Shown here piece by piece: positions 34,037-38,071 of a stretch of 64,000 nucleotides of DNA. The notes under the pieces were generated by a model. The model did no database searches. It saw nothing but the letters and a program-made list of their open reading frames with translations, and was not told the DNA's origin. Each line of letters opens with the position of its first letter. Within the stretch, counting starts at the first letter, position 1. This DNA comes from Bacteroidales bacterium (lineage in GTDB: Bacteria; Bacteroidota; Bacteroidia; Bacteroidales; UBA10428), in contig JAFGVA010000116.1 of assembly GCA_016938235.1 (NCBI GenBank), positions 1 through 64,000 of the forward strand, given 5' to 3'. Both the position numbers and the translations under genes were made by a program.

Positions 34037-35218
34037 ATGAAAGGAAAGATAAGAGTAGGCATTGCAGGAAAGAGCGGGCCATTTGAAAACATAAAAAACG
34101 CGTTATCACAAATCGATATTAGTAAGGTTAAAGGAAAGAGCGTTCTTATAAAACCGAATATTGGCAGAGAAGCTTTGCCGGAACACGGTTACAATACTCA
34201 CCCACAGGCTGTAGCAGCTGTCATTGAAGCGTTACAGGAAGCCGGAGCTGCAAAAATTGCTATTGGCGAAAGTCCACTTGTTGGAATTAACACTTTTGAG
34301 GCTTTTAAGAAAGCCGGTATTACTGAAATTGCAGATAAATATGAAATTGAATTAATTGATTTTGATGAAAGGAAACCGGTAACTGCTAATATTCCAATTC
34401 CCAGGGTACTAAAAAATACCCGTATAGCAGCCGAAGTTTTAGAGTACGATATTCTTGTTTCGGTGCCTGTTGCAAAAACCCATATGCACACCCAGGTTAC
34501 CTTAGGAATGAAAAACCTTAAAGGATGCCTATATCGTCACGAAAAGGTCAGGTACCACCAGCTGGAGTATATCGGGCATCAATTTTCTGAGAAAACACTA
34601 GACTCAGCTATTTCTGATTTATCGACAATTTTATTACCTGATATTACTGTAGTCGATGGCTATATTGGTATGGAAGGCCTTGGCCCTTCAGGAGGAACTC
34701 CGATTAAATCTGATTTTGCTGTAGCTTCAGCGCATCCTATTGCTGCCGATTTGTTTGCATGCGTGCTTATGGGTATTAATCCGGAAGATGTGGTACACCT
34801 GAAGCTTGTTGCAAAACGAAATAGTTTTTCCATGAACTTAGACCATTATTTACCCCCCGATAATTATACAGATTTTATTACCTCCTTTGAGCTTCCGCCC
34901 AAAACAATTGCACTTCATTTCGATGACACAATAATTTACGAGTGTGAAGCCTGTAGTTCATGTCTGTCAACATTAATGCTTTTCTTGCGCAGGTTTAGGG
35001 GCGATATGAATGATTTTAAACTTGATGATGGTAAATTTCATATTGCCATCGGAAAAGGAAACAAAAACGTAAAAGACGGTACCATTCTGGTTGGAAATTG
35101 CACAAGAAACCTAAATGATAAAGGCATTTTTGTTAAAGGATGCCCGCCTGTACCCACTCGTATTTATGAAGCTATAACCGGTACAGAGCCCGAAGAGAAC
35201 GAACCCGAAGTAGAATAA
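34037..35218 (+). CDS. DUF362 domain protein
   Basis: The 393-residue protein is a DUF362 member: SVLIKPNIGREALPEHGYNT (about 35-54), AAKIAIGESPLVGINTFEAF (about 75-94), ILVSVPVAKTHMHTQVTLGM with KNLKGCLY (about 151-178) and VVDGYIGMEGLGPSGGTPI (about 220-238). The C-terminal part has cysteines CEACSSCL and VGNCTRN with GIFVKGCPP that could hold a cluster, but not the usual ferredoxin CxxCxxCxxxCP pattern. The family has no proven reaction. It stands alone with 197 bp upstream and 178 bp downstream; the downstream gap holds the regulatory array of the exbD operon. Confidence 0.9.
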   Translation: MKGKIRVGIAGKSGPFENIKNALSQIDISKVKGKSVLIKPNIGREALPEHGYNTHPQAVAAVIEALQEAGAAKIAIGESPLVGINTFEAFKKAGITEIADKYEIELIDFDERKPVTANIPIPRVLKNTRIAAEVLEYDILVSVPVAKTHMHTQVTLGMKNLKGCLYRHEKVRYHQLEYIGHQFSEKTLDSAISDLSTILLPDITVVDGYIGMEGLGPSGGTPIKSDFAVASAHPIAADLFACVLMGINPEDVVHLKLVAKRNSFSMNLDHYLPPDNYTDFITSFELPPKTIALHFDDTIIYECEACSSCLSTLMLFLRRFRGDMNDFKLDDGKFHIAIGKGNKNVKDGTILVGNCTRNLNDKGIFVKGCPPVPTRIYEAITGTEPEENEPEVE

Positions 35219-35263: not shown

Positions 35264-35330
35264 CAAACTTATAATTACGTTAAAAAACTTAAAAATAAGT
35301 TGCACAACTTAAAAATAAGTTATAAGTTTG
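35264..35330 (+). promoter_or_regulatory. Operator array and promoter of the exbD-blaI-M56 operon
   Basis: Six half-sites lie here. AACTTA occurs at 35266, 35286 and 35306 (exactly 20 bp apart). TAAGTT occurs at 35296, 35316 and 35323. They form two identical palindromes AACTTAAAAATAAGTT (35286-35301 and 35306-35321) inside an outer 11-bp inverted repeat (CAAACTTATAA 35264-35274 with TTATAAGTTTG 35320-35330). The promoter is embedded in the array: TTG 35300-35302, 20 bp, then TAAGTTTG 35323-35330 (TAnnTTTG). A repressor bound here would cover the promoter. The BlaI-type regulator encoded downstream is the obvious candidate. Confidence 0.72.
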
Positions 35331-35396
35331 TTTTGCTGATTAACTGATTCAGGTAATACTTAATACAAGTTTATTTATGAAAATAAGAAAAAGCTT

Positions 35397-35960
35397 ATGG
35401 CTCGCAGGGAAATACCTGAAATCAATGCCGGTTCAATGGCTGACATTGCATTTTTATTGTTGATTTTTTTTCTGGTTACTACTACCATGGATACCGACCA
35501 GGGAATATTAAGAAAACTGTCACCTTACCTTCCTGAAGACCAAACTCCACCGGAAGTGCGTGAAAGAAATATCTTTGTTGTACTGGTTAACCGTGATAAT
35601 CAACTCCTGGTTGAAGGTGAAGTAATGAAAGTTGATAATTTAAAAGAGAAAACGATAGAGTTTATTCTGAATCCTGAAAACAAGACAAATTTACCCGAAA
35701 AGAAAATGAAGCTAATACCAATACTTGGTGAGCTTGAGGTTTCAAAAGGCGTAATTTCGCTTAAGTCAGACAGAGGAACTGAATACAACATGTTTATAGC
35801 AGTGATGAACGAACTTTCTGCTGCATTAAATGAAGTTAAAAACAATAAAAGTCTTCAGTATTTTGGGAAAGCACTCAAAGACCTTACAAAAGAGCAGCGT
35901 GAGGCGATTGACGATGCTGTACCGGTAATAATTTCGGAGGCCGAACCAAACAGAATATAA
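35397..35960 (+). CDS. exbD: ExbD/TolR-type biopolymer transport protein
   Basis: The 187-residue protein has a short cytoplasmic N-terminus, one membrane helix with the proton-path Asp (MADIAFLLLIFFLVTTT; Asp 16) and a periplasmic domain (about 45-187). The periplasmic part shows NIFVVLVNRDNQLLVEGE, the strand GVISLKSDRGTEY and the Bacteroidota-type C-terminal extension, ending ISEAEPNRI. ExbD subunits sit in the ExbB channel and turn proton flow into motion for TonB-like partners. No exbB or tonB gene is adjacent. Instead it is the first gene of an operon with a BlaI repressor (16 bp downstream) and an M56 protease whose C-terminus resembles this protein's own periplasmic part. Regulation is likely through the operator array at 35264-35330. 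Confidence 0.93.
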   Translation: MARREIPEINAGSMADIAFLLLIFFLVTTTMDTDQGILRKLSPYLPEDQTPPEVRERNIFVVLVNRDNQLLVEGEVMKVDNLKEKTIEFILNPENKTNLPEKKMKLIPILGELEVSKGVISLKSDRGTEYNMFIAVMNELSAALNEVKNNKSLQYFGKALKDLTKEQREAIDDAVPVIISEAEPNRI

Positions 35961-35976
35961 ATAAAAGCATATACAG

Positions 35977-36351
35977 ATGGTAACACTAACCAAAGCAGAA
36001 GAAAAAATAATGCAAATTCTTTGGGACCTGAAAAAGGGTTTTATTAACGATATTCTTGAATATTACGAAGAACCCAAACCTCCATATAATTCTGTTTCTA
36101 CCATCGTTCGGGTTTTGGTTAAAAAGGAAATTGTAGGTTATAAACAATATGGAGGTTCACACCAGTACTTTCCTTTGATTTCGAAGGACGAATACAGCAA
36201 AGGCCAACTCAGTAAACTGGTAAAGGATTATTTTAGTAATTCTTTTAAGCAAGTAGCCAGCTTTTTTTCAGAGAGCGATAAACTTAAATCTTCCGAAGTT
36301 GACGAGGTCATTAAAATGCTTGAAGAAATAAAACAGAAAAAAAATGGCTGA
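35977..36351 (+). CDS. BlaI/MecI/CopY family repressor
   Basis: The 124-residue protein is a standard BlaI-type winged-helix repressor: LTKAEEKIMQILWDLKKGFI (about 3-22), YNSVSTIVRVLVKKEIVGYK (about 38-57), SHQYFPLISKDEY, and a C-terminal dimerisation helix region (about 75-124; LKSSEVDEVIKMLEEIKQ). In the bla/mec systems such repressors bind palindromes over their own promoter and are inactivated by cleavage after the membrane protease BlaR1 is triggered. Here the M56 gene overlaps its 3' end by 8 bp, so repressor and protease are co-translated. Palindromes suited to such a dimer are at the operon promoter. Confidence 0.95.
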   Translation: MVTLTKAEEKIMQILWDLKKGFINDILEYYEEPKPPYNSVSTIVRVLVKKEIVGYKQYGGSHQYFPLISKDEYSKGQLSKLVKDYFSNSFKQVASFFSESDKLKSSEVDEVIKMLEEIKQKKNG

Positions 36352-38071
36352 GTATATAATATATCTGCTTGAAACCGGTGTTTGCCTTGCCCTGTTTTAT
36401 GTGGGCTATATTCTGCTGTTCCGGAAAGAAACCTACTTTGCATTTGTCAGGTATTACCTTATCTGTAGTATGGTTCTTGCGCTCGTTATTCCTCTTATTC
36501 ACATCGATTTAGCCTCCGATAATGCTTTACGGCGAAAAATAGAGAGCATACATCGATATAAAAGTTATTACGAAGAGGTTGTTCTGTTAACAGATGCTGA
36601 ATTTGATTTGGAAGATCAGCTTGCTGCCGGAGAAGAGATGGTCAATAAAAACCTCGAAAATAAAACTTTGGGTGCACCATTGGTTTCAGCTGATAAAAAT
36701 AAGCTAAACCGGGTACAACTAATTTTTTTTCTGGTATATGCTGCAGGGGTTCTGTTTTTCTTTGCAAGGTTTTTATACCTCTTGATTTGGCTTAATGGCT
36801 TCTCTAAAAAGAATAAAAAAGAAAACATTGACGGACTGAAATTAGTCACTCTTGATAAAGAAATGCCTTCGTTTTCGTTCTTCAACAGGATTTTTATTAA
36901 CAGAAATATACTTACGGCCTCCCAGTTTGAGCAGGTTTTTGCTCATGAAAAAATACATGCTAATCAAAAGCATTCTTTTGATTTATTGCTTGCTCATGTT
37001 TTTACCATTTTCCAGTGGTTTAATCCCCTGGTGTGGCGCATGCATAAATCGATGAAGATTGTTCATGAATATATTGCCGACCGCAAGGTGGTTGAACAAG
37101 GTTATGAGCTGTTCGATTACCAGTCCTTACTACTGAGTCAGTTAATCAGCATTCGCTCAGTTGAGCTGGTAAACAATTTTAACTTATTATCCATTAAAAA
37201 AAGAATAGCTATGATGAATAAAATGAAATCGGGACATATGGCAAAGCTTAAAGCAATAGTTGCTGTCCCATTGGTTATGTTGGTGTTTTTTGTGTTTTCT
37301 GATTTAACATTTGCCGATTCTGATGTTATTTCCGGAGAGACTAATCAACCACAGATCAGTAGTATAATGCCTGTAAACTCATGGCCGCTTGCAAAATACT
37401 ACAGAGAAATTGATATGGATCGGGTTAGTATAATAATCTGGTACGATGGTTCTAAAATGAGGCTTAATGAAAAGTTCTGCAATTTACAGGAGTTTCCGGT
37501 TGTTTTAGAAGAGTTTCTAAAAGAGAATACAGCAAATGCCGGGTATCATATGGTTCTGTTCGATATCGACAAACAGGTGAAAATGGAAGATATGTATTTT
37601 ATCTTTAAAACCCTTAGAGAGAACGAAGTTTATAAAGTAGCTTACAGGGTTATGCCCGAAAGTTCAAATTTTGACAAAAGTATAGTTTATGCCCAGCCAC
37701 AAATGTTGCCACCTATAGATGCACAAATAATTAAGAAGGATGAGCTTAGAAAAGAAGGCGTAAAACTGTTTGAGTATAAAGATGTTCCGGCCTCAGGAAT
37801 TGAAGATTTAAAAATGGATATCGAGAAGCTCATTCAGGGTAGTAAGAAATACATTATCGAATATGAATTTTCGAAAGAGACTACCTATGAAACATATATT
37901 AATAATACAAACGCAGTATTCCAGGTTTTCAATAAGGTGCGTAATTTCTATACTCAGGAAAACTATAATAAAAAACTTGATGAGCTGGAATCGGATGTTC
38001 AGGAAGAAGTCAGAAAAGTATTTCCTATTACGTTAATGATGGTTATGGCAGGGGAGGAGATACTTAATTGA
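36344..38071 (+). CDS. BlaR1-like M56 membrane metalloprotease with ExbD-like periplasmic domains
   Basis: The 575-residue protein has membrane helices at about 3-26, 34-55, 125-150 and 303-324. The M56 zinc site is intact: HEKIH (201-205) and HEYIADRKV (Glu 242) on the cytoplasmic side between helices 3 and 4. BlaR1 has a penicillin-binding domain after helix 4. Here residues about 355-575 read as two ExbD-like units. The first is about 358-437 (VSIIIWYDGSKMRLNEKF, LFDIDKQVKMEDMYFIFK). The second is about 455-575. Residues 513-561 align without gaps to ExbD 128-176, with 12 identities, both starting T-x-Y and ending at Pro. A cytoplasmic protease that cleaves the BlaI repressor on a periplasmic cue is the inferred role. 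The protease call is firm; the ExbD similarity is my own reading. Confidence 0.9.
   Translation: MAEYIIYLLETGVCLALFYVGYILLFRKETYFAFVRYYLICSMVLALVIPLIHIDLASDNALRRKIESIHRYKSYYEEVVLLTDAEFDLEDQLAAGEEMVNKNLENKTLGAPLVSADKNKLNRVQLIFFLVYAAGVLFFFARFLYLLIWLNGFSKKNKKENIDGLKLVTLDKEMPSFSFFNRIFINRNILTASQFEQVFAHEKIHANQKHSFDLLLAHVFTIFQWFNPLVWRMHKSMKIVHEYIADRKVVEQGYELFDYQSLLLSQLISIRSVELVNNFNLLSIKKRIAMMNKMKSGHMAKLKAIVAVPLVMLVFFVFSDLTFADSDVISGETNQPQISSIMPVNSWPLAKYYREIDMDRVSIIIWYDGSKMRLNEKFCNLQEFPVVLEEFLKENTANAGYHMVLFDIDKQVKMEDMYFIFKTLRENEVYKVAYRVMPESSNFDKSIVYAQPQMLPPIDAQIIKKDELRKEGVKLFEYKDVPASGIEDLKMDIEKLIQGSKKYIIEYEFSKETTYETYINNTNAVFQVFNKVRNFYTQENYNKKLDELESDVQEEVRKVFPITLMMVMAGEEILN

Follow-up and report, generated by a model that had tools for sequence, protein, structure and literature searches.

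A putative BlaI self-operator of three palindromes built over the promoter of an exbD-blaI-M56 operon in Bacteroidales

BlaI_0696 and BlaI_1845 of C. thermocellum were found by DAP-seq and EMSA to be self-regulated, and the paired inverted repeats they recognize were taken as sites for four protomers (PMC8457756). The structure of BlaR1 and the cleavage of BlaI have been described (PMC9834060), and duplicated operators have been documented for CopY (PMC7253601). In Bacteroidota, the promoter consensus of sigma-ABfr combines a −7 element, TAnnTTTG, with a TTTG near −33 (PMC7366714). No paper on Bacteroidota BlaI operators, on the two-residue correlation discussed below or on an M56-ExbD protein was found in the open-licence literature.

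The locus considered here belongs to a Bacteroidales bacterium, and all coordinates are those of the window, namely the whole 64,000-nucleotide stretch that was analysed (contig JAFGVA010000116.1). A DUF362 gene ends at 35218, approximately 50 bp 5′ of the palindromes to be described, and downstream of these an exbD gene (35397–35960, + strand, 187 residues), a gene for a BlaI-type repressor (35977–36351, + strand, 124 residues) and one for a BlaR1-like M56 metallopeptidase (36344–38071, + strand, 575 residues, with an 8-bp overlap with the end of blaI) follow on one strand and tightly spaced. The repressor matches Penicillinase_R (PF03965) with 96.9 bits over residues 4–117, as well as solved BlaI and MecI. 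The asparagine of the S. aureus BlaI cleavage site (N101-F102) is not kept in the window protein, in which the site aligns to F-F, with conservation of the phenylalanine.

Before exbD, AACTTA starts at 35266, 35286 and 35306, and TAAGTT at 35296, 35316 and 35323, exactly where the original prediction, made from this DNA alone, had placed three copies of each. They belong to an array of three 16-bp palindromes of the AACTTA-N4-TAAGTT type, set at exact 20-bp steps with 4 bp between neighbours. The distal one, O3 (AACTTATAATTACGTT, 35266–35281, + strand), differs by one mismatch from O2 (35286–35301, + strand) and from the proximal O1 (35306–35321, + strand); the latter two, also recognized in the ortholog alignment, are the identical 16-bp palindromes already reported, both being exact copies of AACTTAAAAATAAGTT with the unconstrained centre included. 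Each palindrome contributes its two arms to the six half-sites, the sixth being the right arm of O3, TACGTT (35276–35281; AACGTA on the other strand). Thus, the number given in the original prediction was correct, by accident, as it had counted the TAAGTT at 35323 instead of this arm. The conserved 20-bp step corresponds to approximately 1.9 helical turns of 10.5 bp each, and fits dimers bound side by side on nearly one face of the helix.

The array is in close register with a promoter. The TTG at 35300–35302 (+ strand) and TAAGTTTG at 35323–35330 (+ strand; TAnnTTTG) match the −33 and −7 elements of the sigma-ABfr consensus. The last two bases of O2 and the next G make up the −33 TTG, O1 fills the spacer between the two elements and O3 lies just upstream. 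The same arrangement is found family-wide, with the −33 TTG formed from the penultimate palindrome's 3′ end and a G, the last palindrome serving as the spacer and TAnnTTTG starting one base on; counting the window, the TTG at the end of O2 is present in nine of 11 loci. The nn positions of the −7 box are AG in the window and AG, TG, TA, GG or CG among orthologs, and because of this variation the TAAGTT at 35323 is read as promoter sequence rather than as a half-site. The idea of a half-site built into the −7 box is therefore better explained as mere resemblance. TAAGTT occurs within the box of only two of ten orthologs, which makes its presence there probably coincidental, together with the 11-bp outer inverted repeat (35264–35274 and 35320–35330), which exists as described but borrows this very TAAGTT for one arm. 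The broader proposal, that the array lies over the promoter so that a bound repressor would exclude RNA polymerase, is strongly supported by the comparison among genomes.

For this comparison, BlaI relatives were gathered from whole genomes and the DNA 5′ of each was read. Pairs of AACNNA-N4-TNNGTT at exactly 20 bp were found within 450 bp of the gene in 84 of 170 upstream regions, and in none of 170 after shuffling. In the remaining half or so, these criteria gave no 20-bp pair; some of the regions have other spacings, and others have different or unrecognized sites. The form most often found before Bacteroidota blaI-M56 genes is AACTAA-N4-TTAGTT, with the same geometry as the window array. 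The nearest orthologs (L079–L084, from Marinilabiliaceae and other Bacteroidota, with 63–72% BlaI identity) all carry AACTTA-type sites just 5′ of blaI. When ten orthologs were aligned on the promoter, the three palindromes were in register, with strict 20-bp steps in eight; O3 is conserved at this step in these and is recognizable in one more. In the other two, L242 and L244, the arms are degenerate and O1 is preceded by a step of 21 bp. Across the orthologs, the N4 centres and the spacers vary around arms that are conserved, which indicates selection on the half-sites. The conservation expected upstream of orthologous exbD-blaI-M56 operons was found for the half-sites but not for the gene order, since the orthologous operon is blaI-M56, without exbD, and the array stands directly before blaI. 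As to other arrangements, AACTAA palindromes precede blaI at a 25-bp rather than a 20-bp step in L040 and L064, and dyads of other kinds, with no AACTAA array, are found just 5′ of blaI in L030 (1443–1463; TATTACGAAACTTTCGTAATA) and L041, which are perhaps further operator classes.

In the 5.2-Mb genome to which the window belongs, palindrome pairs at a 20-bp step occur only at this locus when base 5 of the half-site is left free and three mismatches are allowed, so that this search for a regulon gave no further 20-bp array. The backwards control pattern gave one match per strand in the loose scan and none in the stricter AACTTA array form. When the genomes of the window and of eight orthologs were searched with the pattern, each gave a single array, located at the blaI promoter, and the backwards control gave none; the strict pattern gave no array in the genomes of L242 and L244, and a plasmid search gave no matches. 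The scan for AACTTA-N4-TAAGTT that had been suggested as a way to other controlled promoters returned three further exact single palindromes in the window genome, two within open frames as long as 214 and 432 codons, and one that is neither in an open frame of at least 60 codons nor part of an array. Given these coding-frame or array-less positions, they look like chance occurrences and were rejected as regulon targets.

The spelling of the half-site changes along with the repressor. The shift from AACTAA to AACTTA goes with residue 10 of BlaI (Q/E to K/R; K10 at 36004–36006 in the window) and residue 36 (A to P; P36 at 36082–36084). Among 85 loci with arrays, base 5 of the half-site is other than A in all 24 whose BlaI has K/R10, and is A in 60 of the 61 whose BlaI has Q/E10, the single exception (L069) being a doubtful array and probably a false call. 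With perfect symmetric palindromes taken alone, 18 of the 19 sites associated with K/R10 and P36 are without A at base 5 (bases 4–5: 15 TT, 2 TG, 1 GT and 1 TA), whereas all other residue combinations have TA at bases 4–5 (86/86). In a column-by-column comparison, residue 10 outperformed residue 36 as a single predictor, and the two taken together did best. Residue 36 on its own was set aside as determinant, with only one firmly supported independent pair. From this covariation we infer that the change of operator is matched by residues 10 and 36 of BlaI.

That the array is a BlaI operator while the two residues are lineage markers, without a role in setting its spelling, is a quite possible alternative. 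The independent origins are few: on a tree made without the residue columns in question, the operator changes five times and residue 10 four times, and three to four independent pairs agree and none oppose, which is not enough to be significant by a sign test (p = 0.125–0.25). Furthermore, by alignment with S. aureus BlaI, residue 10 falls in helix 1 and outside the recognition helix, at whose start residue 36 is placed, opposite S41. However, AACTAA is kept by proteins with only one of the two changes, namely E10 with P36 (L170, L188) and K10 with S36 (L097, L098, L101), and L058, which is nested among the K/R10 and P36 proteins but has E10 and K36, also has AACTAA sites. The window genome has further BlaI paralogs with A36, one of which, on contig 167, has AACTAA sites, so that the change may plausibly have served to insulate paralogs from one another.

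Taken as a putative self-operator of the operon's BlaI-type repressor, the array very probably has its right reading, and the ligand originally named would be the correct one, as the array follows blaI across genomes and covaries with the BlaI sequence. It could instead be the operator of another regulator that controls blaI promoters group-wide, as the comparison among genomes, taken alone, demonstrates no more than that the sites accompany blaI. This is improbable, since the spelling covaries with BlaI residues and not merely with the presence of the gene, the array occurs once per genome and always at blaI, and in C. thermocellum the related repressors recognize paired inverted repeats 5′ of the operons to which they belong (PMC8457756). 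A meaningless 20-bp tandem repeat, originating from local duplication of AACTTAAAAATAAGTTGCAC, is suggested by the identity of O1 and O2 over 16 bp, and a recent duplication or conversion may indeed have perfected the window copy, but a repeat of this kind as the whole explanation is very unlikely in view of ortholog arms that are kept while centres and spacers differ, and of the conserved dyad symmetry and promoter register. That the palindromes act as RNA, as a DUF362 terminator (they lie about 50 bp 3′ of its stop codon) or as a leader hairpin, has hardly any probability either, as they are 5′ of the −7 box and outside the exbD-blaI mRNA, their A+T-rich arms would form weak hairpins, and orthologs keep both the array and its exact −33/−7 spacing in spite of different upstream genes.

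With BlaI as the repressor, dimers placed side by side on O1–O3 would exclude the sigma-ABfr RNA polymerase and repress exbD, blaI and the M56 gene. The M56 membrane protease would take in an envelope signal through the ExbD-like domains described below and cleave BlaI, and this cleavage would release the three genes together.

The presence of exbD under such control is peculiar to the window genome. No exbD-like frame other than that of the window was found among 137 BlaI loci searched, nor was blaI found near any other of 30 exbD loci. The gene is a second copy with respect to the exbD genes found separately on contig 126, the nearest of which is 62% identical. The nearest partial exbD match (G036:C267) was discarded, as it sits in an ordinary exbD neighbourhood with no blaI operon. 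The leader behind the −7 box of the window exbD (35331–35350, + strand), with TGCTGATTAACT, is common to the blaI leaders of orthologs (L081, L082 and L083: TGCTGATTAACTAACTTAG), which argues for insertion of exbD between an old blaI promoter and blaI. On the sequence comparison, exbD is thus an addition to a blaI-M56 operon that now lies behind the operator of blaI in this genome only. In L079 (4631–7039), the operon has acquired another envelope gene, for a MacB/FtsX-type permease, between blaI and the M56 gene.

The M56 protein scores above the PF05569 cut-off, its best fold match is BlaR1 (E = 3.8e-5), and the HExxH...E residues H201, E202, H205 and E242 (HEKIH at residues 201–205 in the window protein) are invariant across six orthologs. 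No penicillin-binding sensor domain was found by Pfam, and the C-terminus is ExbD-like. Two predicted periplasmic domains follow one another, the first (approximately residues 354–440; 37403–37663, + strand) of the short-ExbD type by profile and fold comparison, the second (approximately residues 460–568; 37721–38047, + strand) of the long-ExbD type by profile comparison. The first hits the solved ExbD 8pek (E = 2e-5), the second the long-type ExbD of Bacteroidota (E = 4e-15 by hhalign), and each half of the domain profile matches one of two adjoining exbD genes in related genomes. The Pfam ExbD match is above the cut-off in L082 and L083 and just below it in the window protein. The structure model is weak (mean pLDDT 62.9, pTM 0.41) and only residues ~350–570 of it were used; the ExbD fold matches of the whole model have poor E-values (0.05–0.4), so that the ExbD assignment rests mainly on profile comparisons. 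In its tail, the protein resembles a fusion of the protease with both of the ExbD types that the Bacteroidota Ton cluster contains. M56 proteins with the two ExbD domains (37403–38047 in the window) are also found in L080–L084 and L241–L244. In other BlaI groups the M56 partners have TonB_C tails (L003, L004, L010, L016, L025) or M23 peptidase tails (L019, L029), from which it appears that the sensor part has been exchanged often. A motor feedback circuit may be imagined, in which the ExbD pair of the sensor would report the state of Ton/ExbB-ExbD (or peptidoglycan contact) and BlaI, with its operator code rewritten by two residues against paralog cross-talk, would control the captured exbD; this remains a tentative and rather unlikely proposal.

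Bacteroidota have BlaI-M56 systems in abundance. The consensus offered here, AACTAA-N4-TTAGTT, which mostly occurs as pairs at a 20-bp step over −33/−7, and the variant class with its candidate two-residue specificity code give a means to predict BlaI targets. This operon appears to have acquired an envelope-energy gene, placed behind an operator that was already present, beside a sensor made of domains of the same kind.

By its predicted components, the window system has the core BlaI-BlaR1 features of a Penicillinase_R repressor, an adjacent M56 gene and a putative dyad operator over its own promoter. With S. aureus BlaI/MecI and BlaR1/MecR1 it shares the type of repressor, the M56 protease with HExxH and dyads over the promoter. 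However, the extracytoplasmic part of the protease is ExbD-like rather than a penicillin-binding sensor, the operon is without a beta-lactamase or PBP2a gene, and the TACA/TGTA operator core is absent. The copper repressors CopR/CopY are homologous winged-helix proteins with duplicated operators over promoter elements, but differ in their operator (TACANNTGTA, absent from 35264–35330), in being released by metal rather than by a protease, and in having no M56 gene (PMC7253601). As in C. thermocellum, a BlaI-family repressor, here putatively autoregulated, in an operon with a BlaR1-type protease is associated with consecutive inverted repeats and a very small regulon, and the C. thermocellum half-sites GTCTAT and GACTAT resemble AACTAA (PMC8457756). 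The window system differs from it in having three palindromes, N4 rather than 5 nt between the arms and AACTTA as half-site, and in an operator that is fused to a Bacteroidota −33/−7 promoter and would bring exbD under its control.
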